A stretch of DNA of 49,781 bases from Acidimicrobiaceae bacterium (GTDB taxonomy: Bacteria; Actinomycetota; Acidimicrobiia; Acidimicrobiales; RAAP-2), in contig PKXJ01000018.1 in assembly GCA_003132305.1 (NCBI GenBank), forward strand, positions 33,780-83,560. The letters run 5' to 3'. A program made the translations under genes and the position numbers. Under the pieces are notes generated by a model. It was not told where the DNA came from and ran no database searches. It saw only the letters and a program-made list of their open reading frames with translations. Numbering within the stretch: the stretch's first letter is position 1; every line of letters begins with the position of its first letter. Positions 7,945-29,745 of the stretch are shown piece by piece.

Positions 7945-7950
7945 GTGGGG

Positions 7951-10717: not shown

Positions 10718-10747
10718 TTGCGTCCCCCGAGTCCAGTGATATATCAT
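10718..10747 (+). promoter_or_regulatory. Candidate leaderless promoter overlapping a palindrome, for the cupin gene
   Basis: TTGCGT (10718-10723), an 18-nt spacer and TATCAT (10742-10747) are followed by 6 nt and then the ATG at 10754, so transcription would start at or next to the start codon; no ribosome site is present. The -10 region is embedded in the perfect inverted repeat TGATATATCA (10737-10746), the same 10-mer found at 47308-47317, where TATCAT is also followed by 6 nt and ATG. The -35 match is weak. Confidence 0.4.
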
Positions 10748-10753
10748 GTTCAA

Positions 10754-11143: not shown

Positions 11144-11244
11144 CGCCCGTCAGTTCTCGTTGAACATACTGAACGTTACTTGCGGTTAGAACTGCGGAAC
11201 GCGATGAAAACCCAAAAGCAATCGACCGTGGAGGATCTCAGAAG

Positions 11245-14784: not shown

Positions 14785-14915
14785 CCTTCCACCAGGGTGT
14801 TCGTGATGACGACGGGGGTCCTAGAAAACGACTCGGTCGGCCCCGCGTTCGCTAACGCGACTCACCGCTGAGCCAACTCCTCCTCAAGGGCGAAGCCGAG
14901 TCCGTACGCCGCCAG
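14590..14915 (+). repeat. Right direct repeat (coxG 3' remnant plus amidase 3' end)
   Basis: Counterpart of 11755-12135. It holds the coxG stump, about 75 bp of spacer and the true 3' end of the amidase gene. Similarity to the left copy is high in the coxG tail and in the last ~18 amidase codons and poor in the spacer. Confidence 0.7.
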
Positions 14916-16397
14916 TTCCCCGAATCGTGGACCGATGATCTGAATGCCGACGGGAAGGTCGCCGCGACCAACGCCGCAAGGGACGCTCAGCGCCGGATGA
15001 CCACTGAGATCAAGCGGGCAGGTATTGAGCAACTCCGTGCCACCTCGCGTCATTCGATCCGCCCGTTCACCCATACCTTCAAGAAGTGGGAAGGCCACCG
15101 TTGGCACGGTAGGGGTGACCAGCAGGTCGACGTCAGTGAAGAGCGAATCGATCTCGTGCCGCAGCCGTAAGCGAAGATTGTGGGCCTTGGCGAGAGGCAC
15201 GCCCCACTCCACCTCATTCAAGTACTGGGCGAGAATCAGTCGGACGAGCACGCGGGGCGGCAGGTGATGACTGAAGGTCGTGGACCGGCGAGCACTCGCG
15301 GCGACCGCGTCGACGTCGACACGCCCCAGATGACCGAAACCGAGACCGTTCGATAGCCACATGCCGTAGAGGCCATGGGCGACAACAGCAGAAAAAATGG
15401 GGAGTGACAGGGGCCAAAGCGAGACGCTCACCTCTTGCACGATGGCGCCGGCGTCAGACATCCCTTGAAGGCTCCGTCGAAAGGCGGCCAGCACCTCGGC
15501 TTCGACCAACTCCGGCGATACGGATTCGCGAATGAAGCCAACTCGCGTTCCTTCAAGCCCACGTCCGCGCGCCGATAGGTACTCAGACGCACGGGGCTCA
15601 CCTCGGAGCCACTGCGGGTCGCGCCAGTCCTCACCGGCGATCACTTCCAGTAGTTGGGCGTTGTCCTCCACGTTGGTCGTGATCGGGCCAATATGGTCGA
15701 GCGTATGGTCCATGTACGTCAGCCCGTAGCTCGGCACGAGGCCGTGGGTGGCCTTCATCCCGACCAAACCACACCACGCGGCCGGAATACGAATACTCCC
15801 TGCTTGATCCACGCCGAGGGCCATGTCGACCATGCCACTCGCCACCGCGGCCGCGGATCCACTCGATGACCCGCCAGTGGACGCTGACGGATCGAGCGGA
15901 TTACGCGCGGCACCGAAGTAGGACCCTTCACCCGAGCCAACAGCCATATCCTCCATGTTCGTCTTGCCGACGATGGTCGCTCCGGCCCTCAGTACGCGTT
16001 CAATGACGACGGCGTCTTCTGTAGGAACGAAGTAGGGCCGGCGTCCACCTCCCTCACTCTGAGGGACCCCGGCCACGGCAATGCAGTCCTTCACCGCGAG
16101 ACGCTTACCCTTGAGCGAACCTTCGCCTGCCCCGCGCACGTCGCAGAACCGAACGAATGCGTTGTGGGGATCCTCACCTTCGCCAGGCATCTTCCCCGGG
16201 TCTCGGTGCGTGTGATCGATGGGAACCGAACTCTCTTCGACGTCCTCAAGCTTCTCGAGGGCGGCCATCGCGTCGCCAATCCAATCGGGAAGAAGTCGAG
16301 CGTCTTCTCCGTCCAGTTGCACGCCCACGCGTGCAGCGCACTTCTCAACCATCTCGGACGTTGGTGCTACAAAGTGCGCGAACTGGCGCTTGCTCAT
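14862..16397 (-). CDS. Amidase-signature family amidase
   Basis: A ~511-aa amidase with the complete Ser-cisSer-Lys triad, numbered from the ATG at 16397: Lys103 in AVKDCIA, Ser177 in STGGSSSGSAAAVASG and Ser201 in DQAGSIRIPAAWCGLVG. The 24-residue Ser-Ser spacing is the family standard. An in-frame TTG at 16466 would add 23 poorly conserved residues. It lies 174 bp downstream of operon A's last gene on the same strand and may be read through from it. Predicted to hydrolyse a carboxamide in the cytosol, releasing ammonia; the substrate could be a pathway amide. Its last codons are duplicated at 12076-12135. Confidence 0.92.
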   Translation of the reverse strand: MSKRQFAHFVAPTSEMVEKCAARVGVQLDGEDARLLPDWIGDAMAALEKLEDVEESSVPIDHTHRDPGKMPGEGEDPHNAFVRFCDVRGAGEGSLKGKRLAVKDCIAVAGVPQSEGGGRRPYFVPTEDAVVIERVLRAGATIVGKTNMEDMAVGSGEGSYFGAARNPLDPSASTGGSSSGSAAAVASGMVDMALGVDQAGSIRIPAAWCGLVGMKATHGLVPSYGLTYMDHTLDHIGPITTNVEDNAQLLEVIAGEDWRDPQWLRGEPRASEYLSARGRGLEGTRVGFIRESVSPELVEAEVLAAFRRSLQGMSDAGAIVQEVSVSLWPLSLPIFSAVVAHGLYGMWLSNGLGFGHLGRVDVDAVAASARRSTTFSHHLPPRVLVRLILAQYLNEVEWGVPLAKAHNLRLRLRHEIDSLFTDVDLLVTPTVPTVAFPLLEGMGERADRMTRGGTELLNTCPLDLSGHPALSVPCGVGRGDLPVGIQIIGPRFGELAAYGLGFALEEELAQR

Positions 16398-16571
16398 TGG
16401 CCAGTACGCTGCGCTAGCCGGCGACGCCCTTTGCCTATAGGTCCGCTGCGGTAGTGCGTCGTGCAAATCGACGATTCGTCATGCAGAATCAACTCGGGTC
16501 CTCGTAACACTTGCGCACGTGACCTTTCCTCTTCAATTGCCGATCGGTTCGTCGATCGCGTGCGATGCCGA

Positions 16572-18866
16572 TTAAGTGTTCGCAAGTTCCCATACGGCCT
16601 CAGGCATGATCGGCGTCGAGTGAAGCGTTGCACCGCACGCGAGCGACGATTCAACGGCACTGGCAATGGCCGCCGCCACGGCGGGGATGCCCGCCTCGCC
16701 CACTCCCCTGGCTTTTAGTGGATTGTCTAGAGGCATGCTCGAAGCGAGGACGACCTCCATGGACGGCGCCTCGCTCGCGGTGGGCAGTAAGTAGTCCATG
16801 AAGGTGGTAGCCAACGGGTTGCCTACGTTGTCGTAGGAAAATCGTTCGAACAGTGCTCCGCCGAGCGCTTGAAGGGCACCTCCTTGAAGTTGGCCAACCA
16901 CGACTCCCTCATCTATCAAGGCACCCGCGTCATAGCCCAGTACTAAGTGCTTCACGTGGACGATGCCCGTCCTCGCGTTGGTAACGACCACTGCGCCATG
17001 AGAGCCAAATCCGTACGTTACGGACTCCTTATCAAACCGAGCCCTTGCCGTCAGTCCCTCGCCCATAGGCGATTGCTTGGATCGTCGTTGGGAGAGTTCG
17101 CCCAGCGACATGGCGAAATCTGGTGCGCCCCGTGTGGAGATTCGACCACAGTCGTAAATCAGGTCCTCCGTTCCCACCTCGAACTCCTCAGCGGCCAACT
17201 CTAGAGCGACGCGCAGGAGTTCTTGGCAGGCGAGGTGGACCGCGCTTCCGGACATTACCAAGGAGCGGCTCGCGTACGTGCCGATGCCGACGTCAATGCG
17301 GTCCGTATCAACACGCACGATGTGCACGGAATCAACCGGGATCCCGAGGGCTTTCGATACGACATTGCTCAGCGCCTTCTGCAGCCCCTGACCTAGGTAG
17401 CTCGCGCCCGTCAATACGTCCACCGTGCCGTCATCGCGAACTTCAATGATGGCGTCCTCGAAAGGTCCGAGTCCTGACTTCTCGATGAAACACCCGGTGG
17501 CGTAGCCGACCTTCTCCGACTCGTCGCGTGAAGTGACGTGTTGCAGTTCGTCGGCAAGGGCTTTCGTGCGCCCGTGAACCCTTTCGAACAGTGAGACATA
17601 ATCGCCAGAGTCGAGCACGACTTCCTTGCCCGCCGAACGGATTCCGGATCGGTAGGGCATGTCCGACACTCGGATGAGGTTCCTTCTACGGATCTCATCG
17701 CCCGGAATCTCCAGGCGCGCAGCCACCCGATCGACCATGCGCTCTCGGACGAATGAGGACTCAAAACGTCCTGGGGAGCGATAGGTGCCGGTAGGTGTTC
17801 TATTGCTCACGACGCAGTGGGCAACTCCACTGTACGACTCGAACCGATACGGCCCGGGAATCTCGCCGAGCGTGAGATCCGCCACTCGAAGCCCGACGGT
17901 GCGAATGTAGGCGCCCGAGTCGATCCAGAATTCGGTCGAAATAGCGAGGAGTCGACCACGCTCGTCAGCGGCGATAGACGCGACGTGAATCTGGTCACGC
18001 GATTGGTTCGCCGACAAGAGGTGTTCACGCCGGTCCTCAACCCACGAGACCGTCCGGTTGAGCATCTTTGCGGCCCATGGCACGAGAAAATCTTCCGGAT
18101 AGAACTCTCCGCGAATCCCAAAGGCGCCCCCCACGTCGACCTCGCGCATTCTGATCGATTCCGTTGACAGACCCAGCATGCCAGCGAGTGCCTTCTGGTT
18201 CGCGTGCACCACCTTGGACGCGCCGTAAATCGTGAGTGATCCTTCGGGACCGGGCTCCGCGACGAGTCCGCGTGTCTCCATCGGCACGCCACTGTGACGA
18301 CCGACGGTGATCGTGAGCGTCTCCACCACGTCGGCGGTTTGAAACACGGCTGCGGCGTCGCCGAAACTTGATTCAATGCGTGCGACTTCATTGTCGAGGT
18401 CGAACAGTTGGATCGACCCCGAAGCTTCGCGGCTATCGACGACGGAGTCCAGCGGCTCGATCTCTAGCTCCACGAGCGTCGCGGCGTCCTCCGCGAAGTA
18501 GCGATCAACAGCGACGATCAGTGCGACCGGTTCACCAACGTAGCGGACGCGATCGACGGCGATGACCGGCTGCAGGAAAGGGATGATGACCGGGCTGACG
18601 GAAATTCGTGGCTCGATCACCGGCACGGAGCCCAGGTCAGCACGAACGTCGCTGGCACTGAAGGCGGCAATCACCCCCGGAGCACGACGCACTTCGTCCA
18701 AGCCGACGTTGACGAGGCGGCCGTGCGACACGTCAGAGCGAACGACAAAAAGCGTCGCTTCGCCGATGACGCTGGCGAGGTCGGCAATGTAGCAACCGGC
18801 GCCAGTGACGTAACGGTCCGGGCCGCCAACCACCTCATGCTGCGTGCCAATCAAGGAATCTGACAT
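16572..18866 (-). CDS. Molybdenum hydroxylase large subunit (Cox/xanthine-dehydrogenase type), operon A
   Basis: A 764-aa molybdopterin-binding subunit of the xanthine-oxidase family that would hydroxylate an N-heterocycle or similar substrate with water. Seen are VRYVGEPVALIVA (108-119), VDVGGAFGIRGEFYPED (243-259), WVEDRREHL (275-283), the active-site loop TYRSPGRFE (361-369) and the catalytic Glu724 in GVGEAGIP. The loop is not AYxCSFR, so this is not a form-I CO dehydrogenase, and it also differs from the common AYRGAGR. It is the last gene of operon A; its ATG shares one base with the stop of the XRE regulator. The matching FAD and 2Fe-2S subunits are upstream in the same operon (22266-23150, 21757-22260). 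Confidence 0.93.
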   Translation of the reverse strand: MSDSLIGTQHEVVGGPDRYVTGAGCYIADLASVIGEATLFVVRSDVSHGRLVNVGLDEVRRAPGVIAAFSASDVRADLGSVPVIEPRISVSPVIIPFLQPVIAVDRVRYVGEPVALIVAVDRYFAEDAATLVELEIEPLDSVVDSREASGSIQLFDLDNEVARIESSFGDAAAVFQTADVVETLTITVGRHSGVPMETRGLVAEPGPEGSLTIYGASKVVHANQKALAGMLGLSTESIRMREVDVGGAFGIRGEFYPEDFLVPWAAKMLNRTVSWVEDRREHLLSANQSRDQIHVASIAADERGRLLAISTEFWIDSGAYIRTVGLRVADLTLGEIPGPYRFESYSGVAHCVVSNRTPTGTYRSPGRFESSFVRERMVDRVAARLEIPGDEIRRRNLIRVSDMPYRSGIRSAGKEVVLDSGDYVSLFERVHGRTKALADELQHVTSRDESEKVGYATGCFIEKSGLGPFEDAIIEVRDDGTVDVLTGASYLGQGLQKALSNVVSKALGIPVDSVHIVRVDTDRIDVGIGTYASRSLVMSGSAVHLACQELLRVALELAAEEFEVGTEDLIYDCGRISTRGAPDFAMSLGELSQRRSKQSPMGEGLTARARFDKESVTYGFGSHGAVVVTNARTGIVHVKHLVLGYDAGALIDEGVVVGQLQGGALQALGGALFERFSYDNVGNPLATTFMDYLLPTASEAPSMEVVLASSMPLDNPLKARGVGEAGIPAVAAAIASAVESSLACGATLHSTPIMPEAVWELANT

Positions 18867-19648
18867 TAACTACCTCCATTGCGATCGTCGCTGATCGTTG
18901 GTTCGATACCAAGGCCGCCAAGTGAACGGTGATCGAGGTCGGACTTAACGTTCAACCACATCGCTTTGGTTCTCCCCGATACCTCATTGGTAAATCGATG
19001 GGGCGTTGACGATAAAAACCGGATGCAGTCACCGGCGCGTAACACGTACGATTCGTGCTCCAGTTCGACGCGGAGCGCTCCGGAGATGACGATGCCAATC
19101 TCGTAGCCGCTGTGGTGCGTAAGCACCGGGCCGGAGGTAGCTCCACGACCGACGTATTCGTGTTCGCTTGCCTCGAGACCTCTCGCGTCTTCCTTGATAA
19201 GGAGCCTCCGCGTCATGCCGTTTGACGCGGGTTGCACCAATTGATCCCCTCGACGAACCACCGGATTCGTTGGTTCCGGGCTTGGCCAGAAGAGGTCGGA
19301 AATCGACATCGACAGTGCGTCGCAGATCGCAACGAGAGTACCGATCGAAGGCGATGTTCGTGCCCTCTCGGCGAGGCTCACCATCGAGACTGAGAGCCCC
19401 GTGGATTGGGCAATGTCCAGGATCGACATTCCCAGCGCCTTGCGCCTCACTCGAATACGAATTCCGATATTGCTGAGGACGTCTTTGGAACTCGCTCGCT
19501 GACTTTTCGGAACGGACGGCCCGTCGGAGAATGGTGGGGTCCAACCAGATGTTGGCTTCGAAGGCGGATCCACGTCACTCGCCGTGACCTCGGATTTTGA
19601 GTGGGGACCGCGATGATTTGCTGAACCTGCAGTAGACGGCCCCATCAT
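18866..19648 (-). CDS. XRE-family regulator with C-terminal cupin sensor
   Basis: A ~260-aa DNA-binding protein. A Ser/Pro-rich N-terminal tail (1-55) is followed by an XRE helix-turn-helix (IGIRIRVRRKALGMSILDIA, then QSTGLSVSMVSLAERARTSPS, about 61-117) and a cupin domain (HHSGYEIGIVISGALRVELE, then YVLRAGDCIRFLSSTPHRF, about 175-240). Such HTH-cupin proteins usually repress or activate catabolic genes in response to a ligand bound in the cupin. The ATG at 19648 overlaps the amidohydrolase stop (ATGA) and its stop overlaps the coxL ATG (TAATG). The regulator is therefore embedded in operon A and translated with it, which suggests autoregulation by operon output. Confidence 0.9.
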   Translation of the reverse strand: MMGPSTAGSANHRGPHSKSEVTASDVDPPSKPTSGWTPPFSDGPSVPKSQRASSKDVLSNIGIRIRVRRKALGMSILDIAQSTGLSVSMVSLAERARTSPSIGTLVAICDALSMSISDLFWPSPEPTNPVVRRGDQLVQPASNGMTRRLLIKEDARGLEASEHEYVGRGATSGPVLTHHSGYEIGIVISGALRVELEHESYVLRAGDCIRFLSSTPHRFTNEVSGRTKAMWLNVKSDLDHRSLGGLGIEPTISDDRNGGS

Positions 19649-20664
19649 GAAGTCGTCCCCCGATGAAGTGGGAAGATCCGTTCCGCGTTCGCTCCAAGAA
19701 TCGCGGCTCGGTCCGAACTTCCCAAATAGTCGTCGCCATTGGCGCCTATCAGCGACCAGTCGCTCATGGCAAAGGGGCAGTCGCTTCCGGCGAGGAGCTG
19801 GCTCGAACCGACGAGGTCGATCAAGAACTCGACCACCTTGCGACTGTGGACGACGGTGTCGTAATAGAACCATGAGAGCGCTGAGCTTGTTGTGGAGGGC
19901 GACTGCTTAGGCACCGTAGGAACCCGATCAGTTGCGAGCCAGTGTTCGACACGTCCAAACTGGTAAGGCAAGAACCCGCCTGCGTGCACGAGGACCACCT
20001 TTAGATCAGGGTAGCGGTCGGGTACCCCGGCTCTGATCATCTCCACCGCAGCCCGCGTGGTGAGGTACGGGTAGAAGACCGGGATGAGCAGTTCCCCGGC
20101 AATCGGCGTCTCCGAAGGATCGTACACACCCGGGTGAATCATGATCGGCAGGCCGAGGCGCTCCGCGTTCGCCCACAGTGGTTCGAGGTCGGCGCGCCCG
20201 AGGCCTCCGTTCATGAAGGAGGTGGCGAGAATTCCCCCAACGGCGCCCGCCCGAGCGGCGACGCCCAACTCTTCGGCCGCGAGGCCGCCGTCGAGGTCGG
20301 GAAGTGACGCGAGCCACCGAAGGCTTGCTTGCCTTTCTACGGCCGTCGCGAGTTCGCTCGAGATGAGACGACACCAGTCACTTTGACTCTCTGCGTTCGT
20401 CGGCGCGGCCATCGCGTCAACCCATCCCCCGACGATCGAGAGGTCGACCTGTTGCTCCTTCTGTCGAGCGACGATCGCACTCGCGTCGAGAAGATCGCCC
20501 TTGGCCGGTCGTCCTCGACGTTCCGAGACCTCATCCTCGAGCACTACCGAGGCACGGTCAGGTGACCACTTCGAACGGAAGTCGCGCGGTGGGTGGCCGA
20601 AGACGGCTGACGGCATCAGATGACTGTGCACGTCAATCTTCATCGAGGGTGACGGTTCAGGCAT
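19645..20664 (-). CDS. Amidohydrolase family protein (ACMSD/decarboxylase-like)
   Basis: A ~339-aa TIM-barrel metal enzyme of the amidohydrolase-2 group, which includes aminocarboxymuconate-semialdehyde decarboxylase and gamma-resorcylate decarboxylase. The metal ligands are visible: DVHSH (His13, His15), IMIHPG, VHAGGFLPYQFGR and SDCPFA (Asp). ATG at 20664 has AAAGAGG upstream and overlaps the hydrolase stop by 8 nt; MKIDVHSH at 20643 is an alternative start. This family decarboxylates or hydrolyses hydroxylated aromatic and ring-opened acids, which fits a step after the C-C hydrolase or the Mo hydroxylase of the same operon. Exact reaction not readable. Confidence 0.88.
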   Translation of the reverse strand: MPEPSPSMKIDVHSHLMPSAVFGHPPRDFRSKWSPDRASVVLEDEVSERRGRPAKGDLLDASAIVARQKEQQVDLSIVGGWVDAMAAPTNAESQSDWCRLISSELATAVERQASLRWLASLPDLDGGLAAEELGVAARAGAVGGILATSFMNGGLGRADLEPLWANAERLGLPIMIHPGVYDPSETPIAGELLIPVFYPYLTTRAAVEMIRAGVPDRYPDLKVVLVHAGGFLPYQFGRVEHWLATDRVPTVPKQSPSTTSSALSWFYYDTVVHSRKVVEFLIDLVGSSQLLAGSDCPFAMSDWSLIGANGDDYLGSSDRAAILGANAERIFPLHRGTTS

Positions 20665-21757
20665 TGGCGACCTCTTTAAGTTGAAGGGTAATCCAGTCAG
20701 CCAACTGTGGACGTACTGTCGGCGCAATGTTGTGACAGCAGTGTCCACCATTCGGCTGAATGACTGACTCTACGACGGATCCGCTCGGCTGGTTCAGCGA
20801 AACTTGATCCTCGTACGGCACGATCCGATCGCGTGCACCGTGCGAGATGAGCGTTGGACATTCGATCGAAGCGATCTCCGCCACGGAGTCGATCAGCGAC
20901 GTCGCGACACGTTCAGCCACGTCGGCACTCACGCCACCACAGGCGTACTCAAAGGTTCGGCGCACGCCAGCGGGTAAACGGCTGAAGGATCGTCCAGAGA
21001 CAAGTGGGCTCCACGCGAGGCACGCTTTGAGCCGAGGCTCGTACCCGGCGGCCTGCAGGGCGTAGGTACCACCGAGACTTCGGCCGACCACGCCAATGCC
21101 GTCGGGGTTGATCGATTCGATGGTGAGCAGAGCGGAGACGGCGGCGGAGACCCACGTGTCAAACCGAGCTCCAAGCGGCACGTCGTGCGCCGTCTCCCCT
21201 TGACCAGGGCCGTCGAAGGTGCAGGTGGCAACGCCGCGGACGAGGCAGAGTTCCTCGAACAGCCGACTCTCCTCCTTCGTCGAATCAAGACCGCCGAGCA
21301 AGATTACGCACGGCCACTTTCGATCACGTTCATTCGTCGGGTATCTCAGGAAGGCGCGCACCTTCTTCACTGGATCGGGTCCCGCTCGAGCCAGTTCCCT
21401 AGGAGCGTCGATCATCACCTCGATCGCCGGTGGGCACAGTGACGACGACGCGCGTCGATAGAGCTCAACGCGGCGTGCTTCGGCGAAGCGCTTTTCGTCC
21501 TCGTCCTCGAACCAGTAGAGCTGCGCGGCGTGGGCGCTCATCGCACTGAGCCAGAGCCACTCGCCAACCGACACTTGACTTGCGGACACCGTCTCCATGG
21601 CGAGTCGCTCGTAGCCGTCACTCAGCCCCATCCAAGCATCGAACCATCGAGCCCCACCTTCGACGGCGGCCTTCACGGTCGATAGGTCAGAAAATGGCAC
21701 GCCGTCCGCCCCGAGCCGGCCACCAACCAGAAAGGCGTGGCGTTCCTCTTCGAACAT
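20657..21757 (-). CDS. Alpha/beta hydrolase resembling 2,6-dihydroxypseudooxynicotine hydrolase
   Basis: A 366-aa alpha/beta hydrolase with an N-terminal helical cap (1-~125). The core contains VILLGGLDSTKEES (151-164), TFDGPGQGE (180-188), the nucleophile elbow GVVGRSLGGTYAL (Ser227), SHGARDRIVP (Asp310) and GGHCCHN (His339). The blocks GGLxSTKEES, DGPGQGE, GRSLGG.YAL and GHCCHN are those I recall from the Paenarthrobacter nicotinovorans enzyme that splits the C-C bond between a dihydroxypyridine ring and its acyl side chain. It is encoded between coxS and the amidohydrolase with 1-nt and 8-nt overlaps, so it probably acts on the product of the operon-A Mo hydroxylase. Another C-C or C-O bond substrate is possible. 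Confidence 0.88.
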   Translation of the reverse strand: MFEEERHAFLVGGRLGADGVPFSDLSTVKAAVEGGARWFDAWMGLSDGYERLAMETVSASQVSVGEWLWLSAMSAHAAQLYWFEDEDEKRFAEARRVELYRRASSSLCPPAIEVMIDAPRELARAGPDPVKKVRAFLRYPTNERDRKWPCVILLGGLDSTKEESRLFEELCLVRGVATCTFDGPGQGETAHDVPLGARFDTWVSAAVSALLTIESINPDGIGVVGRSLGGTYALQAAGYEPRLKACLAWSPLVSGRSFSRLPAGVRRTFEYACGGVSADVAERVATSLIDSVAEIASIECPTLISHGARDRIVPYEDQVSLNQPSGSVVESVIQPNGGHCCHNIAPTVRPQLADWITLQLKEVANA

Positions 21758-22260
21758 CAGACTTGGTCGGACGTTGAATCGGCCGTTGGCTCGAGCAGAC
21801 GACGAGCAGCCCGCATGAGCCCCTGATAGCCCGTGCAGCGACAGATGTTCGACGACATCGCCGCCGCAAGATCCGACTCATCGCCCTTCCAGTCCATATG
21901 AATGAGTCCGGTAAGCAACACCACGAAGCCTGGCGTGCAAAAACCGCACTGCAACGCGTCTTCTTCAATGATGACCTGCTGCACCTTGGCGAGCACGGGG
22001 TCGTGTTCACGTCCCTCGACCGTGGTGATCTCCCGGTTCTCAAAGCCAGCGGCGAACAACAGGCAGGACCGAGCCGGGCTTCCGTCGATCAGGACCGTGC
22101 ACGCGCCACAGACGCCTTGTTCACACCCGAGATGTGTACCCGTGAGCCCGCACTGATCACGCAGCACGTCGGCGAGAGTACGGCGAGGTTCGATATCGAC
22201 CTCGTAGGTTTGGCTGTTCACCGTCAGCGTCACTCGACGGTGTTCGGTTCCTTCGGGCAT
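21757..22260 (-). CDS. 2Fe-2S subunit of molybdenum hydroxylase, operon A
   Basis: A ~167-aa small subunit that passes electrons from the Mo centre to FAD. The plant-type cluster ligands are Cys46, Cys51, Cys54 and Cys66 (GCEQGVCGACTVL...SC). The second cluster has Cys105/Cys108 (CGFC) and Cys140/Cys142 (NICRCTGYQG). All eight cysteines are present. The ATG at 22260 (MPEGTEHRRVTLTVNSQ) lies 5 nt after the coxM stop; upstream in-frame codons back to 22476 belong to coxM DNA and are rejected. The next gene starts with a 1-nt overlap (TGATG). Confidence 0.95.
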   Translation of the reverse strand: MPEGTEHRRVTLTVNSQTYEVDIEPRRTLADVLRDQCGLTGTHLGCEQGVCGACTVLIDGSPARSCLLFAAGFENREITTVEGREHDPVLAKVQQVIIEEDALQCGFCTPGFVVLLTGLIHMDWKGDESDLAAAMSSNICRCTGYQGLMRAARRLLEPTADSTSDQV

Positions 22261-22265
22261 TGACG

Positions 22266-23150
22266 TCAACTCACCTTCTCCTGACGTATTCCCGCCCCTC
22301 CAAGGGCGTCGGCCAACGCGTCGTGGACGACAACCTCGACGAGGCTCAGTTGGAACTTTGCGGTGGAATTTATATCGTCGTAAGCGTTGCAGTCGGTCCT
22401 CGCCAGCGCGGCAATCTGTCGCTTCTCGACGCGGTTGAGGGGACATCCAACGAGGGCCAACTCGGCGTTTTGGCATGAAGTGACGCCGCCGGCCACACCG
22501 CCGACTACGACCCGAGCCGCCGACACGACGTCACCCTCGAAAGCGAGATACACCGCGCAGAGGGCCAGCGCGAAATCGCCTGTCCGCCGGCTCACCTCGG
22601 CGAATCCCGCGACACTCCGCTCAGCGGGAGCTGGGAGTTCGACGCGCGTCAGCAGTTCGGCGTCCTCGATCGCGGTGGTGAACGTACCCTGAAAGAACTC
22701 CGAACTCGACAGCCGGCGAACGCCGCCCTTGCTCTGAAGCACGAAATAGCCGCCTAGCGCCGTCACGACGACGGGCCACTCCGCGGCCGGGTCCGCGTGA
22801 ACCAGGCTTCCACCGATCGAACCATGGAGCCGAATTGGGAGATGACCGATCTCTCTGGCCGCCCGACGAAGAAGGCGAGAGCGAAGGTCCCCGGCCTGGA
22901 GTTGTTCGAGTTCGTAGTGACGAACGAGAGCGCCGACCATCCAGTTTTCCAACGCGTCAGTGTGGAGCGTCGCGAGGTCCGCCAACGAGTTGATGTCGAT
23001 GAGCACCGAAGGTTGCGCGAGGCGCATGTTCATCGTTGGGACAAGGCTCTGTCCACCAGCGAGTACCTTCGCGTCCTCGTAGACGGTGAGTGCGTCAAGC
23101 GCCTCCTCCAAGGAGGAGGGGCGTTCGTAGTGAAACGGTGCCGGCTTCAT
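22266..23150 (-). CDS. FAD-binding subunit of molybdenum hydroxylase, operon A
   Basis: A ~294-aa CoxM-type FAD_binding_5 protein. Starting at the ATG at 23150 (MKPAPFHYERPSSLEEAL, the family's usual N-terminus), it shows VLAGGQSLVPTMNMRLAQP and SIGGSLVHADPAAE, the two FAD pyrophosphate-binding loops. An upstream GTG at 23204 would overlap livF by 20 nt and is less likely. It takes electrons from the 2Fe-2S subunit and passes them to the respiratory chain. It comes directly after the four transporter genes, so import and oxidation are on one transcript. Confidence 0.93.
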   Translation of the reverse strand: MKPAPFHYERPSSLEEALDALTVYEDAKVLAGGQSLVPTMNMRLAQPSVLIDINSLADLATLHTDALENWMVGALVRHYELEQLQAGDLRSRLLRRAAREIGHLPIRLHGSIGGSLVHADPAAEWPVVVTALGGYFVLQSKGGVRRLSSSEFFQGTFTTAIEDAELLTRVELPAPAERSVAGFAEVSRRTGDFALALCAVYLAFEGDVVSAARVVVGGVAGGVTSCQNAELALVGCPLNRVEKRQIAALARTDCNAYDDINSTAKFQLSLVEVVVHDALADALGGAGIRQEKVS

Positions 23151-23184
23151 CGTGACGGCGGATCGTTGCGAGTAGCGCCCGAGA

Positions 23185-23934
23185 TCATGCGTCGTCACTT
23201 CCACCGAGGAATGCCGTCGCCAACCTGTCCATGTCGCGAAGCTGCTCGGGATGCTCCGAGATTGCGATCTGCCCGCTGACCAACACGTGGGTCCAGTCAG
23301 CGACGGCGAGTGCCTCCAGGGCCTTTTGTTCGACGAGCAGGACCGCCGTTCCCGCGTCAGCCAACTGACGCACGAAGCGTTGCAAAATCACTTCTGACAT
23401 CTCTGGCGTGAGACTCGCCGTTGGTTCGTCCAGGACGAGCAGCCGAGGTCGCAACATCAAGGCGCGCGCGATGCCGACGAGCTTGCGCTCCCCACCACTG
23501 AGGTTGGCAACCGTTCGACCGTGAAGGGCGCCGATGAGGGGAAACTCCTCAAACAACTCGACAACCCGCTTAGCGATACGTTTCCTACCTAGCAGGTAGC
23601 CCCCGAGTTCAAGGTTCTCGCGCACGGTAAGACTGGCGAAGGTGTCGTCCGACTGAGGAACGTAGCCCATGCCCTGTTTGGCGAGGAGATCCGTACGAAG
23701 ACCGGTCACGTCTTTCCCCTCCAGCAGAACCCGACCCGATTGGATGGGGAGCATCCCGACGATTCCCTTTAACAGCGTGCTCTTGCCAGAACCGTTGGCG
23801 CCGAGCACCAAGATGACCATTCCGGGCCTGACGCCGAGTGAGATTCCCCGCACGGTGGGCGTCCCTCCGTAGCCCGTGACCAACTCCTTGACCTCAAGGA
23901 GTTGTGTTCCGTTTCCAGTGAGGTCAACCGACAA
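23185..23934 (-). CDS. LivF-type ABC transporter ATPase, operon A
   Basis: A 249-aa ATPase of the branched-chain/hydrophobic amino-acid (HAAT) transporter family. Walker A GANGSGKS (45-52), the signature LSGGERKLVGIARALM, Walker B LLVLDEPTASL and a short C-terminus typical of LivF are seen. It overlaps livG by 11 nt. It pairs with LivG to power the importer encoded upstream. Members of this family transport amino acids, but also urea, amides and aromatic acids. Confidence 0.93.
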   Translation of the reverse strand: MSVDLTGNGTQLLEVKELVTGYGGTPTVRGISLGVRPGMVILVLGANGSGKSTLLKGIVGMLPIQSGRVLLEGKDVTGLRTDLLAKQGMGYVPQSDDTFASLTVRENLELGGYLLGRKRIAKRVVELFEEFPLIGALHGRTVANLSGGERKLVGIARALMLRPRLLVLDEPTASLTPEMSEVILQRFVRQLADAGTAVLLVEQKALEALAVADWTHVLVSGQIAISEHPEQLRDMDRLATAFLGGSDDA

Positions 23935-24682
23935 GATAGGCCCCGATCACCGCTTTGTCACGTCGCACGTCGAGCATTGAACCCGACGCGATGATTGCCC
24001 CACGTGCCATGACAACGACGGAGTCACACACGCGCTGCATCGACTCCATCCGGTGCTCAACCATCATCATGGTCATTCCACGCTCTTTCAGCTCTAGCAA
24101 ATAGTTCTCGATGACGTTCATCATTCGCGGGTTCACGCCAGCCATGGGTTCGTCCAAGAGGAGCAGCCTAGCGGGACCCATGGTGGCACGAAGGATTTCC
24201 ACGAGTCTTCGCTCTCCACCGCTCACGTTGCCCGCGTACTCGTCTTCCTTCTTCTCAAGACCAAACGACTTCAGCAGCTCACGAGCGTCGACCACGTCCT
24301 GCTTTTCGTCAGCTCGCCAACGTCGTCCCAGTCCGATGGCCGACCACATCGAGTCTCCCGTTCTCCTGGGAACACCAAGGAGAAGGTTCTCCATCACTGT
24401 CATCCGTGGGAATACGGCCGCGACCTGATACGTGCGCCGGACCTGTCGTGCGGCCATCGCTTGTGGAGGACCACCGCTCACGTCGACGCCGTCGAGAAAC
24501 ACAGAGCCCGAACTCGGTTTCATCGAACCCGCCACGATGTTCAGCAACGTGGATTTACCGGCGCCGTTCGGACCAAGAACACCAAGGATGTGACCCGGCA
24601 TGAGTTCCAAGCTCACATCATCGACGGCAACGACGCCGCCAAAATTTCGGCTGACCGAGCGGCATTCGAGAAGCCCACTCAA
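23924..24682 (-). CDS. LivG-type ABC transporter ATPase, operon A
   Basis: A ~252-aa HAAT-family ATPase. From the TTG at 24682 it reads LSGLLECRSVSRNFGGVVAV, with Walker A GPNGAGKS (37-44), signature VSGGERRLVEILRATM, Walker B LLLLDEPMAG and the LivG-specific VNPRMMNVIE segment. The TTG overlaps the livM stop as TTGA and has AAGGA upstream. The frame stays open to 24871, but that extension lies in livM and has no family similarity, so I prefer the short form, which also matches the usual length (~250 aa). Confidence 0.9.
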   Translation of the reverse strand: MSGLLECRSVSRNFGGVVAVDDVSLELMPGHILGVLGPNGAGKSTLLNIVAGSMKPSSGSVFLDGVDVSGGPPQAMAARQVRRTYQVAAVFPRMTVMENLLLGVPRRTGDSMWSAIGLGRRWRADEKQDVVDARELLKSFGLEKKEDEYAGNVSGGERRLVEILRATMGPARLLLLDEPMAGVNPRMMNVIENYLLELKERGMTMMMVEHRMESMQRVCDSVVVMARGAIIASGSMLDVRRDKAVIGAYLVG

Positions 24683-25737
24683 GGTCTGGCGTCCTTCGAA
24701 GTGCTCAATTCGCCAATCTGTGTACTGCTGGTACGCGGGCGCAACCACCCCTGCACTAGTTGACGTCCCTTCTTCTCTCCGGCCGGAGCGAATCGTCGAT
24801 GGCGCTCGGGAATCAGACCCTGTGGACGGAACCAAAGGAAGAGGAGTGGCAAGAGTCCGATGACGATCCACTGTACCGATACCGTGAAGGTGGGCGAACC
24901 GAAGTGGGGGAGGTACTGGATACCCTCACCGATGCCCGTCGGCACCACCAACGCGCCGACGAGTGCTCCCCAGTTATTGCCGAGGCCACCCACGATGAGG
25001 GCGGTGAACAGCACGAACGTCTCCGGGTAGAGCCAGCCTGACGGCGCCCACGCGGTCACGTACTCGACGAGGACCCCTCCGCTCAATCCCGCCATCGCGC
25101 CACCCATCATCAGAACAGACGCTTGGAGGCGGAAGGGAGAAAACCCTTGCGCCATCGCGGCCGCCTCGTTCTCTCTCAGCGCCCTCAGTCGGCGCCCGAA
25201 TGGCGAGTCGGTGACACGATGAACAATCAGAAAGCACAGCGCGCACAGAAGTAACGAGAAGCCGGCAAAGAACACATTGTACGAAAGTCCGGCAGCGTTG
25301 TTGCCGAAGAGAGCGACGAGTGGATGTGGCACCAACGCCAAGCCAGCAGCACCTCCGACCAATCCGTCTTGGTTCGTCGCAACCGTCGTTGCGATAAGCG
25401 CGGCCACGAGCAAGACGATCGCCAGGTAGTCAGTACGAAGTCTCCGCACGCCGAGTACCGCGACGACCAGGGAGAGCAGCGCCCCGACAACCGCTGCTGC
25501 GATCAATGGCAACGGAAAGGGCCAGTGGGCCCCTCCGATGTACTGCTGAAATCCTGACGGACTCGCCGGACCGAGCGTGAGGACCGCGGCCGTGTACGCG
25601 CCGGCGGCCTGAAAGACGATATAGGCAAAGTTGACGACGCCCGTAACGCCGAACTCGAGACTCAACCCTGCGCACGCCATGGCGTCTACCGCAAAATAGA
25701 CAAGGATCAACGTGACGTAGAAGATGACCACGTTCAC
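24679..25737 (-). CDS. LivM-type ABC transporter permease, operon A
   Basis: A 352-aa membrane permease with multiple hydrophobic segments. Family landmarks are GVTGVVNFAYIVFQAAGAYTA near the N-terminus, RRLRTDYLAIVLLVAALI, FGRRLRALRENEAAAMAQG (the cytoplasmic ATPase-contact loop) and VGGLGNNWGALVGA. GTG start overlaps the livH stop (GTGA). The charged C-terminal tail of ~45 residues is longer than usual. Forms the membrane channel with LivH. Confidence 0.92.
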   Translation of the reverse strand: MNVVIFYVTLILVYFAVDAMACAGLSLEFGVTGVVNFAYIVFQAAGAYTAAVLTLGPASPSGFQQYIGGAHWPFPLPLIAAAVVGALLSLVVAVLGVRRLRTDYLAIVLLVAALIATTVATNQDGLVGGAAGLALVPHPLVALFGNNAAGLSYNVFFAGFSLLLCALCFLIVHRVTDSPFGRRLRALRENEAAAMAQGFSPFRLQASVLMMGGAMAGLSGGVLVEYVTAWAPSGWLYPETFVLFTALIVGGLGNNWGALVGALVVPTGIGEGIQYLPHFGSPTFTVSVQWIVIGLLPLLFLWFRPQGLIPERHRRFAPAGEKKGRQLVQGWLRPRTSSTQIGELSTSKDARP

Positions 25738-26621
25738 AGCACGACGTCCTTTCGCTGTACCCTCTCGGGGAAGAGGCCCGAGGGTCGTACCACCAGAACG
25801 ATGCCCAGCATCGCGAAGGCAATCACGTTCTTGTACGACGGGTTGGTGAGGGCCGCTCCCACTTCACTGACGACACCGACGATCAAGGCGCCCACCATCG
25901 CACCAAGTGGCCGACCGACACCGCCGAGGATGGCGGCCGCGATCAGCGGAACAAGGAAATCACCAGCGGTGCTGTAGGAGAAACTCGACACCGTGATCGC
26001 GATGACGACCCCGGCGATTCCGGAGAAGACCCCCGAGATCAACCACGTGAGATCGATGACCCGCCCGACATTGACCCCGCTCGCTCGCGCGAGTGGTGCG
26101 TTCGTGGCGGTCGCTCGTATCGCCTTGCCAAATAGGGTGAACCTCAACGTAGCCTCGAGCGCCAGAAGCGCAACGATCGCGATCAACACCACCGAAATCT
26201 GCGTTCCGGTGATCCGAATCGCTCCAAGTGAATACGTGTGGGTTACCGGCACCCTGAGCGAGGAGTAGCCAGGTCCGACGATAGCGAGAACGACGTACTG
26301 GATGATGGTCCACACAGCGAGGCTGATGATCACCATGGCGAACGCTCGCACACCACGGCGTATGAAGGGCATGTAGATGAAGCGGTTCAGGGCGTACGAC
26401 GCGACGGCCCCGAAGACCGCGCCCACGGCTATCGTCAGCCATATATTCGCCCCGTGGCGATTGATCTCGAGCGAGACGTACTCGGCGCCACTCATTACAC
26501 CCGCGATCGCGAGGTTCAGCACGTTGGTCACCCCGTACTGAAGGGTGAATCCAACCGCACCCAGTGACAAGATTGCGGCCGTGACGATGCCAAAACCAAG
26601 AGCAGCTATCGCAATGTTCAT
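25734..26621 (-). CDS. LivH-type ABC transporter permease, operon A
   Basis: A 295-aa permease. LSLGAVGFTLQYGVTNVLNLAIAG at the N-terminus, GKAIRATATNAPLARASGVNVGRV (the ATPase-contact loop) and AAAILGGVGRPLGAMVGAL are typical of LivH. About eight hydrophobic segments. ATG at 26621, 63 bp after the binding-protein stop. Together with LivM it forms the heterodimeric pore. Confidence 0.93.
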   Translation of the reverse strand: MNIAIAALGFGIVTAAILSLGAVGFTLQYGVTNVLNLAIAGVMSGAEYVSLEINRHGANIWLTIAVGAVFGAVASYALNRFIYMPFIRRGVRAFAMVIISLAVWTIIQYVVLAIVGPGYSSLRVPVTHTYSLGAIRITGTQISVVLIAIVALLALEATLRFTLFGKAIRATATNAPLARASGVNVGRVIDLTWLISGVFSGIAGVVIAITVSSFSYSTAGDFLVPLIAAAILGGVGRPLGAMVGALIVGVVSEVGAALTNPSYKNVIAFAMLGIVLVVRPSGLFPERVQRKDVVL

Positions 26622-26684
26622 GCCGAACCTTCCGTGGTTCGACGCTGATTAATCGTGTGGCGTACCTGATCGGCGACGACCGCC

Positions 26685-28007
26685 CTACCCACCGCTGCTC
26701 GCCGATGCGATGTTCGCGGAGCTGACGAATCCGACCGATACTTCCGTTTTGTTGGGACCAACCTTGGTGACCGCGAAGCCGGACGTCGAGTTGTGATACT
26801 TGTTGAACACGACGTCGGCGAAGACCCCCGAGTATTGGATCTGGTGGCCAGCAGCCAGTGCAGACTTGCCCTGTGCGAACGTGTGCACGACCACCTTGCC
26901 ACTACCGGGGTTCGTGACTTTCACGATGTCGGCGTTGTAGATTGACGGCTTCGTACTGTGAGCGTCGAGCATGGCGAGGGCCATGATGGTGACCGCGTCG
27001 TACGGCGCTTGGGCGTAAGGATCGTTGAGCCACTGCTTTGGCTTCGGGATCGACTGCTTGAGCAGGGTCGCCTGATACACCGAGAACGCCGCGCCGCTCG
27101 TCGCTGAATACGGGTGGACGCTGCGGTATTTGGCGGCGTAGTCCGCACTTCCGATCGCGCCACTTATGGCCGCGGTCCAGTCAGGCTGCGAAGCGGGGAT
27201 CGGACCAACGAAGGGAAGAACGGTTCCGTTGTTTAACTGCTTGACGTTAGCGAGATACGTGGCCTCGGACTGGGGATCGGCCTCGGAGACGATCACTTGA
27301 GGCTTCGCCGCGAGGAGCTGCGTCACTTCGGTCTGGTACGAGGACTGATCTTGGGCGATCGACTGATTGACCACGAGTCGAATGTGATAGTGCTTCAGAC
27401 CCGCGATCAACGTCGGGACGTTGGCCTGGGAACTCACCGTGTTGCCGAAGACGGCGGCGACCCGGGTGTAGCCCGCTTGCTTGCACCACACGGCGAAGGC
27501 GTAACCACCCGAGTCATCGGCGGCAAGGATGCGATAGAAGTACTTGTACGAGGACTTGTCGAACTCCTTTTGACCGGTGTTGGCAAACATCGGGATTCGA
27601 TCAGTGTTCAAAATGGGTACGACGGCCGACGCCTCATCCGAACTCGGGCCAATTGCGCCTACGAGATTCGACGTCGTTGCGATCGCCTTATCCACGGCAG
27701 GGATAGCGTCAACGGGGTCGCCCTTCGTGTCGACGACTTGACACGACAGCTTCTTTCCGAGCACACCACCGGCGCCATTGATCTTGCCAATTGCGGTCAA
27801 GCATCCGGCTTGCTGTTCCGGACCAAAGGCTGCATCAGGCCCACTGAACGGTTGAATATTTGCGATGACGAGACTTCCGGAAGAGCCGCTTGCGCCACTA
27901 GCGCTGACTCCGATGTTCGATAAGCCCTGGCCAATGAGCAAAGCGCTGATGACTCCGCCCGCTACCAACAACCTCGGTCTACTACCGCAAATAATTCGCT
28001 TCATCAT
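26685..28007 (-). CDS. Periplasmic/lipid-side substrate-binding protein (HAAT type), operon A
   Basis: A ~440-aa type I periplasmic-binding-fold protein. The ATG pair at 28007/28004 is preceded by a G-rich ribosome site (GGGGGGA). The N-terminus has a basic start and a hydrophobic signal segment (LLVAGGVISALLIGQGLSNIGVSASG). The mature domain begins SLVIANIQPFSGPDAAFGPEQQAG, the family's ligand-site start, followed by GPSSDEASAVVPILN and YRILAADDSGGYA. It captures the substrate outside the membrane and defines importer specificity. It shares the overall pattern of the operon-B proteins but is clearly more distant from them than they are from each other. First gene of operon A. Confidence 0.93.
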   Translation of the reverse strand: MMKRIICGSRPRLLVAGGVISALLIGQGLSNIGVSASGASGSSGSLVIANIQPFSGPDAAFGPEQQAGCLTAIGKINGAGGVLGKKLSCQVVDTKGDPVDAIPAVDKAIATTSNLVGAIGPSSDEASAVVPILNTDRIPMFANTGQKEFDKSSYKYFYRILAADDSGGYAFAVWCKQAGYTRVAAVFGNTVSSQANVPTLIAGLKHYHIRLVVNQSIAQDQSSYQTEVTQLLAAKPQVIVSEADPQSEATYLANVKQLNNGTVLPFVGPIPASQPDWTAAISGAIGSADYAAKYRSVHPYSATSGAAFSVYQATLLKQSIPKPKQWLNDPYAQAPYDAVTIMALAMLDAHSTKPSIYNADIVKVTNPGSGKVVVHTFAQGKSALAAGHQIQYSGVFADVVFNKYHNSTSGFAVTKVGPNKTEVSVGFVSSANIASASSGG

Positions 28008-28062
28008 CAAGTCCCCCCAGGACGCACTGCTTCCGAATTTCAGTGCTACTAGATTTATTTGA

Positions 28063-28095
28063 GTAAAACTAATATATCGCCCCACGCCGTGTCAA
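28063..28095 (-). promoter_or_regulatory. Candidate promoter of operon A
   Basis: A perfect -35 box TTGACA (28095-28090 on the minus strand) lies ~85 bp before the first gene of operon A. The -10 is poor: TAGTTT at 18-nt spacing. The spacer contains CGATATATTAG, whose first nine bases equal those of the site at 31657-31673. So this may be an activator- or repressor-controlled promoter, but only one half of the inverted repeat is recognisable. Confidence 0.35.
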
Positions 28096-28243: not shown

Positions 28244-28999
28244 TCAGGCGACGGGGCTACTGTCATCTCGACTGAGATGAGGAGTTGCCGTTCCACTTCG
28301 CCACTCACCTGCCCAACTTCTTCGTCCTGTTTCAAACGGGACACTCATCTCCGAAAGTGAGTTGTCAATTAGTAAGCGCGGTTCCGTGGCAGCTTGAACC
28401 TCGTCAACGCTCACACCCGGCGCCACTTCGACTAGCCAGAGCCCGTCGTCGCGGACGTCGAGCACGGCAAGGTCAGTGATGATGCGTTGGACCACACGAC
28501 GACCCGTGTACGGAAGCGTGCACTTGGTCATCACCTTGTGCGTGCCGTCTTTCGCAACGTGCTCCATCATGACGATGACTCGCCTCGCGCCGTGGACCAG
28601 ATCCATCGCGCCGCCCATTCCCTTCACCATCTTCCCCGGGATCATCCAATTGGCAAGATCACCGGCCTTGGACACTTGCATCGCGCCAAGGATGGCGGCG
28701 TCGATACGACCGCCTCGGATCATTCCAAATGACAATGAGGAGTCAAAGAACGATGTACCAGGCAGTGTCGTAATCGTCTCCTTACCGGCGTTGATGAGAT
28801 AGGGATCTTGTTTTCCCGCTTCGGGATAGGGACCTACCCCCAAGATCCCGTTCTCACTTTGTAAGGTGACGTGCACGTCGGGCGGCACGAAATTCGGCAC
28901 CAACGTCGGAAGACCGATTCCCAGGTTGACGTAGTCGCCGTCGTTCAGTTCTTGGGCTACTCGCGCGGCGAGCTCTTCACGCGAGAGCGTCATCGGCAT
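28244..28999 (-). CDS. 3-oxoacid CoA-transferase, subunit B
   Basis: A ~251-aa beta subunit of a class I CoA-transferase. The catalytic glutamate is in [11 protein letters not shown] (Glu49 from ATG 28999), with [13 protein letters not shown] before it and [16 protein letters not shown] after it. ATG 28993 overlaps the alpha-subunit stop as ATGA; ATG 28999 is 6 nt earlier, and either may be used. Together with subunit A it would move CoA from a donor such as succinyl-CoA to a 3-oxo or dicarboxylic acid, such as a ring-cleavage product. Similar to PcaJ/ScoB/AtoA; substrate not assignable. Confidence 0.93.
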
Positions 29000-29745
29000 G
29001 TCCCGTGATCTGGATATCGGACCGTCGTCATCTCGATACGTTTTTCGGACTCCGCGCTTACGGGTACAACGCGCTGGACGAAGATACCGGGGAGATGGAT
29101 TTGGTCGGGATCGAGTTCTCCCAGCCCGACGACCGTTTCCACTTCCGCAATGGTCACCCTTCCGGCCATGGCGCAAAGCGGGTTGAAGTTGCGCGTCGAC
29201 GAGTGGAAGACGAGATTACCCTCGGGGTCACCGAGTGTCGCCCGAACGATCGCGAAATCGGTGACGATGGCTTCTTCGAGGAGATACTGATGACTCGCAA
29301 ACTCTCGAACCTCTTTCGGTGGCGACACGACGGCAACGGATCCGTCCTTGTCGTAGCGCCACGGCTGTCCGCCATCGGCGACCAGTGTGCCCACCCCGCC
29401 CGGTGTGTAGAACGCGGGGATACCGCAGCCACCGGCCCTGAGCCGTTCAGCCAGCGTGCCCTGAGGAATGAGTTCGACCTCGAGTTCACCGCCCAGAAAC
29501 TGGCGGACAAACTCTTTGTTCTCGCCAACGTATGAACTGGTCATGCGGCTTATTCGTCCGGCGACGAGGAGAAGACCGAGACCCCAATCGTCGACGCCAC
29601 CGTTGTTGGACACGACGCGCAGATCCGTGGGTCCGGCCGCGAGCAGCGCTCCAATGAGTTCCGTGGGAATCCCACAGAGTCCGAACCCCCCTACGGCCAG
29701 CGTGGCGCCGTCAGTGATGTCAGCGACTGCCTCTTCGGCCGTCAC
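28990..29745 (-). CDS. 3-oxoacid CoA-transferase, subunit A
   Basis: A 251-aa alpha subunit. [19 protein letters not shown] is the CoA-binding glycine loop, followed by [16 protein letters not shown] and [11 protein letters not shown]. The first usable start is GTG 29745 ([10 protein letters not shown]). The six codons just upstream in frame (VDNKLF) look like the usual N-terminus of this family but contain no ATG, GTG or TTG, so the true start is uncertain. About 140 bp upstream lies a candidate operator (29885-29904). Coupled to subunit B by a 4-10-nt overlap. Confidence 0.92.

Follow-up and report, generated by a model that had tools for sequence, protein, structure and literature searches.

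In nicotine catabolism, 2,6-dihydroxypseudooxynicotine hydrolase (DHPONH) acts directly after ketone dehydrogenase (KDH), a molybdenum (Mo) enzyme, and the DhpH of the same pathway forms 2,3,6-trihydroxypyridine. Two other hydrolases serve as further points of reference: in the sections of PMC11165489 considered here, an Asp of AntI contacts the hydroxyl of a bound naphthol, and an Asp in a like loop of Ayg1p is proposed to belong to a network aiding the enol-keto shift before C-C cleavage. The origin of the nicotine gene cluster is described as still elusive by the authors of PMC10494377, in the part of that paper drawn on here. We analyzed a 49,781-nucleotide stretch of an Acidimicrobiaceae bacterium genome (assembly GCA_003132305.1, contig PKXJ01000018.1, positions 33,780 to 83,560; hereafter the window), in which the minus-strand open reading frame at 20657-21757 is intact, with 366 codons and no interruption. 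By sequence and predicted fold, DHPONH is the nearest solved relative of its product, called the hydrolase below. We propose that the hydrolase acts in the manner of DHPONH, as a serine C-C hydrolase, on a ketone other than 2,6-dihydroxypseudooxynicotine, a reading that we rate, with the full course set out below, at slightly better than even. The broader claim, that it is a C-C hydrolase of some hydroxylated aryl or heteroaryl ketone, we consider reasonably probable. The proposal draws on homology, catalytic residues, predicted fold, gene neighborhood and recurrence, and all substrates and reactions are deduced from these.

Pfam and NCBIfam profiles assigned the hydrolase to general alpha/beta hydrolase families only (S33, 9e-10; FrsA-like, 3e-6). 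In a phmmer search of solved structures the best match was DHPONH (2jbw; E 5e-59, 203 bits, aligned over residues 13-356), followed by two AntI sequences at 63 bits, with the remaining five matches listed at 36 bits or less and Ayg1p at 29 bits. Identity to the DHPONH of plasmid pCZY was 36.8% over 348 columns, which together with the phmmer E value places the match beyond chance. A single-sequence fold prediction was of no use (pLDDT 34), and a 16-row alignment was therefore taken for modeling. The resulting AlphaFold2 model (pLDDT 77, pTM 0.83) includes a helical N-terminal cap as in DHPONH, and structure searches with it placed 2jbw first (TM as high as 0.86; Z 42.8 across 347 residues at an rmsd of 2.5), compared with Z values of 36.4 for AntI, 32.6 for FrsA and 31.2 for Ayg1p; this lead may be favored, because the other 15 rows of the alignment were all DHPONH copies. 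Identity as an ordinary esterase or as FrsA was rejected on far lower sequence and fold scores.

All four motif blocks pointed out in the sequence-only reading are present (GGLDSTKEES at residues 155-164, DGPGQGE, GRSLGGTYAL and GHCCHN), and the Ser227-Asp310-His339 triad that it called intact aligns with Ser217, Asp300 and His329 of DHPONH. Five residues, G155, S164, R226, C340 and H342 in the numbering of the window protein, do not vary among the 22 DHPONH-clade rows described below and are absent from 24 others; they border the oxyanion loop, the nucleophilic Ser and the catalytic His. The oxyanion-loop residue is Glu in 21 of the 46 rows and Asp in 25. Glu148 of DHPONH is the form found in 17 nicotine and four sister rows, whereas the hydrolase has Asp158, at the position of Asp175 of AntI and, judged by motif, Asp188 of Ayg1p; an Asp in a GLD(S/G) loop beside the oxyanion hole is the arrangement of these two enzymes. 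The acid-base role in DHPONH is assigned to Glu248 in the portion of the review PMC6122326 used here. Residue 248 of the Paenarthrobacter DHPONH sequence (L044) is Trp, not Glu, and on comparison with Ayg1p we infer that Glu148 is the likely acid-base residue. Since the triad, the clade residues and a loop Asp are kept, the catalytic set for removing an acyl chain from a hydroxylated ring is present.

A scan of genome contigs (genome_contigs) with the hydrolase alone returned no relatives, and a scan with a two-row alignment (A2) returned 18 loci. We term these nicotine loci by gene content: a kdhC homologue (61-100% identical) lies within the fetched stretch in 17 of the 18, and the eighteenth (L047) holds a different Mo large subunit along with a homologue of 6-hydroxynicotine oxidase. 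The DHPONH copies of the 18 loci share 52-100% identity with the pCZY copy and 36-41% with the hydrolase. With the own genome counted, matches to the hydrolase were obtained in 5 of 397 same-order genomes at E 1e-45 and in 2 of 396 same-phylum genomes at E 1e-50. Four WhiB genes were found in the own genome; among 14 control genomes this family occurred in one, Corynebacterium, which marks the own genome as actinobacterial. Twelve of the 26 other genomes of the genus gave a DHPONH-like match at E 1e-20 (31-33% identity), and those placed in the tree belong to a different subfamily from the hydrolase.

The tree was built by maximum likelihood from 46 rows, after removal of the copy of genome G448, which has an internal stop, of matches shorter than 230 columns and of duplicates (e.g. 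L038 = L039). The hydrolase groups with 17 nicotine rows and with sequences from four further genomes (G142, G418, G335 and G683) against 24 others (support 100/99), and this split persists after removal of six long-branched rows (100/100). In both trees the nicotine rows form one clade that excludes the hydrolase (98/96 and 99/96). Neither of two constrained topologies was rejected by the approximately unbiased (AU) test, one uniting the nicotine rows with the hydrolase (p-AU 0.183) and the other uniting the remaining 21 clade members without it (p-AU 0.323). In these alignments, then, the hydrolase is on the DHPONH side of the tree and would fit either inside the clade or at its base. The kinship to DHPONH-type C-C hydrolases proposed in the sequence-only reading is upheld by the matches to 2jbw and by this placement, which is not among far esterases.

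Several homologues differ from this pattern. The DHPONH-like gene of G448 (L056/L051) reads short through an in-frame stop, and the G418 and G335 copies have 357 residues. A second DHPONH-like hydrolase of the own genome (G000:C16:184937-185947; L002, L026) is 32% identical to the first and adjoins another branched-chain-type ABC importer; no Mo large subunit was found in the 16 kb read around it, and its relatives occur in 12 of the 26 other genomes of the genus. Three plasmid-borne rhizobial proteins (L006:9070, Shinella; L007:9073, Ensifer; L008:9004, Rhizobium) all have Ala in place of the nucleophilic Ser (GMAFGG), with the Asp and His retained, and may possibly represent a different chemistry or pseudo-enzymes. 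The Shinella and Rhizobium copies stand in a like gene order with a dioxygenase, a short-chain dehydrogenase/reductase (SDR), a 3-keto-5-aminohexanoate cleavage protein, a zinc alcohol dehydrogenase, a cupin and a gamma carbonic anhydrase.

The Mo-hydroxylase setting claimed for the gene is borne out. Against solved structures, large subunit A scored 499 bits with KDH (7dqx; next match, 316), B1 scored 690 bits with KDH (next, 410) and B2 scored 565 bits with quinoline 2-oxidoreductase (1t3q; next, 487), and identity of A and B1 to kdhC is 37-44%. The gene for A starts 1.8 kb downstream of the hydrolase and that for B1 lies 14 kb away, so that KDH-type subunits are part of the locus; in Mo enzyme B, a single small-subunit gene and a single medium-subunit gene accompany two large-subunit genes. 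In a 28-row Mo tree, A and B1 fall with KDH and with subunits of G418, G335 and G683 (SH-aLRT 100), and B2 with presumed nicotine dehydrogenase subunits, which are the second Mo large subunits in nicotine loci (98); because the rows come only from fetched loci, the KDH group may include other functions. Two of the rows duplicate the window's own genes, a 600-column minimum removed the subunits of G142, which are broken, and the second subunits of L043-L048, which are partial, and near-duplicate loci (L035, L038, L041, L044, L045, L046, L048 and L056) were dropped entirely.

Across loci, a Mo large-subunit gene (E 1e-30) was found near DHPONH-clade hydrolases in 23 of 23 cases, comprising the 18 nicotine loci and five further genomes with the window itself uncounted, and in none of 11 outside the clade (Fisher 3.5e-9, a value that is too good because the loci are related). 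The Mo match of G142 lies at the edge of its stretch (151 bits), and L028, one of the outside loci, spans just 3.3 kb. The Shinella locus L006 holds an annotated Mo-binding protein beyond the reach of the Mo large-subunit queries. Four Mo large subunits were found in the own genome at 1e-20, all on contig C19, which is the contig of the window. To the right of the window lies a third Mo enzyme (L094:12510-19477 and L095, contig C19), whose large subunit is 28% identical to A and which stands beside a UbiD-type decarboxylase, a PF01979 amidohydrolase, XdhC and a further ABC importer set.

Parts of the cluster recur in other genomes. In G142, from another family of the same order, one contig stretch holds an amidase, the hydrolase, an XRE-cupin regulator, a nitrilase, an amidohydrolase and an SDR, together with a KDH-like large subunit, CoxG and a Mo run in the order medium-large(B2)-small-large(B1); several of these genes match piecewise or with a stop. 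At the contig end stands a cyclase 80% identical to the PF04199 cyclase of the window over 149 residues, and a second copy (53%) lies on a different contig. G418, G335 and G448 carry the hydrolase, an old yellow enzyme (OYE; 49-50% identical to that of the window) and Mo genes, with homologues of the nicotine-type cyclase (32-34%) and of DhpH (38-39%) further along in the first two, and G683 carries the hydrolase, KDH-like subunits and DhpH (44-45%). The window-type XRE-cupin regulator occurs in eight genomes of genus g76, family f56, and its relatives in other genomes head a conserved Mo-enzyme gene run. Seven f56 loci (L108-L110, L113-L116) have the run XRE-cupin, SDR, nitrilase, medium, B2, small, B1, one of them ending at a contig end before the small subunit, and their Mo genes are arranged as in the window and G142. 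Judged from these runs, which lack the hydrolase in the stretch read, the two-large-subunit Mo run seems to form a stable unit to which the hydrolase would have been added.

Table 1. Features of the window discussed in the text, by position.
Feature	Position	Strand	Remarks
Enoyl-CoA hydratase and acyl-CoA ligase	1768..4094	-	candidates for the lower part
Carbon-nitrogen hydrolase (nitrilase family)	4392..5318	-	
PF04199 cyclase-family protein	5275..6126	-	
OYE-type flavin reductase	6237..7490	-	
MoxR, CoxE/VWA, MobA-like (by eye) and CoxG genes	7933..11949	+	
Amidase (PF01425)	14862..16466	-	
Mo large subunit A	16572..18866	-	best solved relative KDH (7dqx, 499 bits)
XRE-cupin regulator	18866..19873	-	probable start 19648 by eye
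PF04909 amidohydrolase, ACMSD/uracil-5-carboxylate decarboxylase superfamily	19645..20751	-	probable start 20643 by eye
DHPONH-like alpha/beta hydrolase	20657..21757	-	366 aa; Ser227, Asp310, His339; Asp158 in GGLDS loop
2Fe-2S small subunit, Mo enzyme A	21757..22476	-	probable start 22260 by eye
FAD medium subunit, Mo enzyme A	22266..23204	-	
Branched-chain-type ABC importer	23185..28085	-	substrate-binding protein PF13458, two permeases, two ATPases
3-Oxoacid CoA-transferase family subunits A and B	28244..29745	-	
Glutaryl-CoA dehydrogenase	33571..34761	+	3swo, 631 bits
Mo large subunit B1, KDH type	35620..37950	-	7dqx, 690 bits; 44% to kdhC
2Fe-2S subunit, Mo enzyme B	37947..38429	-	
Mo large subunit B2	38426..40825	-	best solved relative quinoline 2-oxidoreductase (1t3q, 565 bits)
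FAD medium subunit, Mo enzyme B	40815..41678	-	

Upstream of the hydrolase lie the 2Fe-2S and FAD subunit genes of Mo enzyme A, the ABC importer and the CoA-transferase; downstream, the order is PF04909 amidohydrolase, XRE-cupin regulator, Mo large subunit A and amidase (Table 1). The sequence-only reading had set the gene between the 2Fe-2S and large-subunit genes, which is accurate for the former, overlapped by one base at the hydrolase start, but needs amending for the latter, as the amidohydrolase and the regulator intervene. The amidohydrolase matches ACMSD (1.5e-21) and uracil-5-carboxylate decarboxylase (1.6e-16) and is possibly a decarboxylase. The permeases and ATPases of the importer were assigned by visual inspection and from matches to annotated Shinella ABC genes. 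The MoxR, CoxE, MobA-like and CoxG genes probably serve Mo-enzyme maturation. No match to 6-hydroxy-L-nicotine oxidase, DhpH or the cyclase of pCZY was found among the 41 window proteins at E 1e-4, consistent with the earlier statement that nicotine-specific genes are absent. The 21 window proteins under Pfam scan included no ring-cleaving dioxygenase and gave no polyketide synthase setting of the Ayg1p/AntI kind. Promoter and terminator scans gave scores under the shuffled mean. Elsewhere in the window are a PEP mutase/isocitrate lyase family gene (13106-14191), two carboxymuconolactone-decarboxylase family genes (500-1057 and 12891-13361) and two ABC substrate-binding protein genes (45224-46540 and 48537-49706; products alike by eye) that resemble a third to the right of it (L094:7022-8389, whose product is 72% and 75% identical to theirs, respectively). 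An open reading frame resembling an IS630-type transposase by eye also lies to the right (L094:11369-12115).

In the course that we propose, the Mo enzymes would hydroxylate the ring of an N-heteroaromatic ketone, most likely of pyridine type, with the quinoline/nicotine-dehydrogenase-type subunit B2 serving the first hydroxylation and the KDH-type subunit B1 or A the second. The resulting acyl-dihydroxypyridine would be able to tautomerise to a vinylogous 1,3-diketone. Asp158 of the GGLDS loop would then shift a proton and Ser227 would add to the carbonyl of the side chain within the oxyanion hole, the ring would depart, and water would release the side-chain acid. If the analogy is exact the departing ring would be 2,6-dihydroxypyridine, an identity that we think somewhat short of an even chance. 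An acyl-pyridine-like compound, as suggested in the sequence-only reading, is still the best guess for the substrate. The position of the hydrolase outside the nicotine clade, the changed residues on its pocket side and the nitrilase, both discussed below, are points on which that reading is not borne out.

For the lower part, DhpH was found in three of seven genomes searched (G418, G335 and G683) and not in the own genome, G142, G448 or G086 by the same search, and the ring may accordingly bypass 2,3,6-trihydroxypyridine. The genes for OYE, cyclase, nitrilase, enoyl-CoA hydratase and acyl-CoA ligase are consecutive, from 7490 to 1768, and OYE kin adjoin DHPONH-like genes in three f35 genomes. 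The protein encoded at 33571-34761 has nine of its ten best PDB matches named glutaryl-CoA dehydrogenase (GCDH), one of these nine with the qualifier 'putative', with the next kind at 237 bits, and it contains a TYEGT motif whose Glu we take to be the catalytic Glu of GCDH. At E 1e-60 the own genome has one GCDH copy and one of 15 other same-genus genomes also gave a match; none was found in the three f35 genomes. Together, the GCDH, the gene row from OYE to ligase and the lack of a DhpH match suggest that 2,6-dihydroxypyridine or a like imide is opened to a C5 diacid. The OYE, cyclase and nitrilase would convert the ring, via its imide tautomer, to this diacid (glutarate or glutaconate), which GCDH together with the CoA-transferase or ligase would pass on to crotonyl-CoA; a route without the OYE, via glutaconimide and glutaconate, is equally open. 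That the pathway ends through glutaryl-CoA is tentative and, in our estimate, rather unlikely. The nitrilase shares 28% identity with the omega-amidase (a carbon-nitrogen hydrolase) encoded in the nicotine cluster, so the earlier label 'omega-amidase-like' is weak; on this value and on the lack of a match for the cyclase, the two were rejected as orthologues of the nicotine nitrilase and cyclase. Among the titles and abstract openings of open-licence papers returned by literature searches, none described a bacterial dihydroxypyridine-glutarimide/OYE/glutaconate/glutaryl-CoA route, including those on acetylpyridine clusters and pseudooxynicotine metagenome-assembled genomes.

Three other accounts of the hydrolase were weighed. 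It could be a true DHPONH of the nicotine pathway, diverged quickly or stripped of its companion genes, as its best match, the nearby KDH-type Mo subunits and the AU test on grouping with the nicotine clade (p-AU 0.18) would allow; yet its 36-41% identity to the 18 nicotine copies falls below the 52-100% that these share with the reference, it lies outside their clade in both trees, the regulator is a different one (XRE-cupin), 6-hydroxynicotine oxidase is unmatched among the window proteins and DhpH was not found genome-wide, and we regard this account as highly improbable. Asp158, shared with Ayg1p and AntI where DHPONH has Glu, and the rank of AntI as second-best kind by both sequence and fold, raise the alternative of a C-C hydrolase for a carbocyclic polyphenol ketone such as an acyl-resorcinol or acyl-phloroglucinol. 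N-heterocycle-type Mo hydroxylases and several C-N hydrolases among the neighbors, together with the lack of a ring-cleaving dioxygenase among the Pfam-scanned proteins, make it very unlikely.

The hydrolase might instead be an esterase or amidase that releases the substrate, with the C-C bond broken by decarboxylation through the PF04909 protein (for example, of 2,6-dihydroxynicotinate to 2,6-dihydroxypyridine). The fold is common to FrsA and esterases, and the amidohydrolase with its decarboxylase matches lies in the same gene run, but the hydrolase carries the residues of the DHPONH-group clade and FrsA and esterases score far lower, so that we consider this quite unlikely.

The preferred reading, a DHPONH-like C-C hydrolase acting on another ketone, also has points that count against it. 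The terminal branch of the hydrolase is very long (1.79 changes per column, its placement flagged as unsure by the program), and both constrained topologies for its place on the DHPONH side pass the AU test. Of 125 positions invariant in the 17 nicotine rows, the hydrolase keeps 83, where the four sister rows keep 79-105 and the 24 other DHPONH-like rows 53-67. Four DHPONH residues that every one of the four sister rows retains are replaced in the hydrolase (Y81 by A, R91 by K, Q95 by E and D328 by G), so its pocket side may differ. No hydrolase or cyclase stands in the seven f56 Mo runs within the stretch read. In the lower part, a search at 1e-40 gave no such OYE in G142 or G683, so the enzyme is no constant part of the cluster, and the G418 and G335 clusters that include it hold DhpH as well. 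By blastp the window cyclase does not match that of the nicotine cluster, though both belong to PF04199. G142 and G683 have one GCDH each, on another contig than the cluster, and GCDH also acts in lysine and tryptophan breakdown. G448, with a cluster of the same kind as G418, yields no DhpH, and DhpH and GCDH are not mutually exclusive, because G683 has both.

The most extended form of the proposal would have the region encode a complete aerobic, non-nicotine route for an acyl N-heterocycle, in which two Mo hydroxylations, carried out in part by one enzyme whose two large subunits share their small and medium subunits, and the hydrolase would yield 2,6-dihydroxypyridine; without further hydroxylation this would be opened via its imide form to glutarate or glutaconate for a GCDH end, with the pair of Mo enzyme and hydrolase predating the nicotine pathway, which recruited it; this we judge unlikely. 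Pairs of a Mo hydroxylase and a DHPONH-like hydrolase outside the nicotine clade, found in clusters without known nicotine genes beyond the shared core (own genome, G142) and in ones holding DhpH (G418, G335, G683), are natural outgroups for the origin of the nicotine cluster and may help show the source of part of that pathway. The lower route, if true, would represent a second means of metabolising 2,6-dihydroxypyridine.

Among described systems, the Aspergillus nidulans hxn nicotinate pathway has an imidase, HxnM, of the PuuE/peptidoglycan-deacetylase kind and not of PF04199. As described in the sections of PMC9304392 used here, an OYE of that pathway reduces a hydroxypyridine and imide opening and amide hydrolysis follow, a precedent for pairing an OYE with imide opening; the pathway differs in acting on 2,3,6-trihydroxypyridine, in doing without a C-C hydrolase and in ending in alpha-hydroxyglutarate. 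KDH (7dqx) and quinoline 2-oxidoreductase (1t3q)/nicotine dehydrogenase are, like the window enzymes, three-subunit Mo hydroxylases, whereas enzyme B has two large-subunit genes per small and medium gene. AntI (6hxa, 8qbh) and Ayg1p/Wdyg1p (8qd1, 8qd7) share with the hydrolase the fold, the triad and the Asp of the GLD(S/G) loop, and they cleave acyl chains at, or close to, a hydroxylated ring, as proposed for the window enzyme; fold-alignment identity is 21% for AntI and 15-17% for Ayg1p/Wdyg1p, and their setting is biosynthetic. DHPONH (2jbw, Paenarthrobacter plasmid type) shares the cap fold, the triad, the GGL(E/D)STKEES, GRSLGG and GHCCHN blocks and a KDH-type Mo hydroxylase nearby. It differs in its identity of ~37%, in Glu148 against Asp158 and at some cap-side positions, and its locus has another regulator, importer and set of lower genes and a side-chain amine oxidase that is unmatched in the window.

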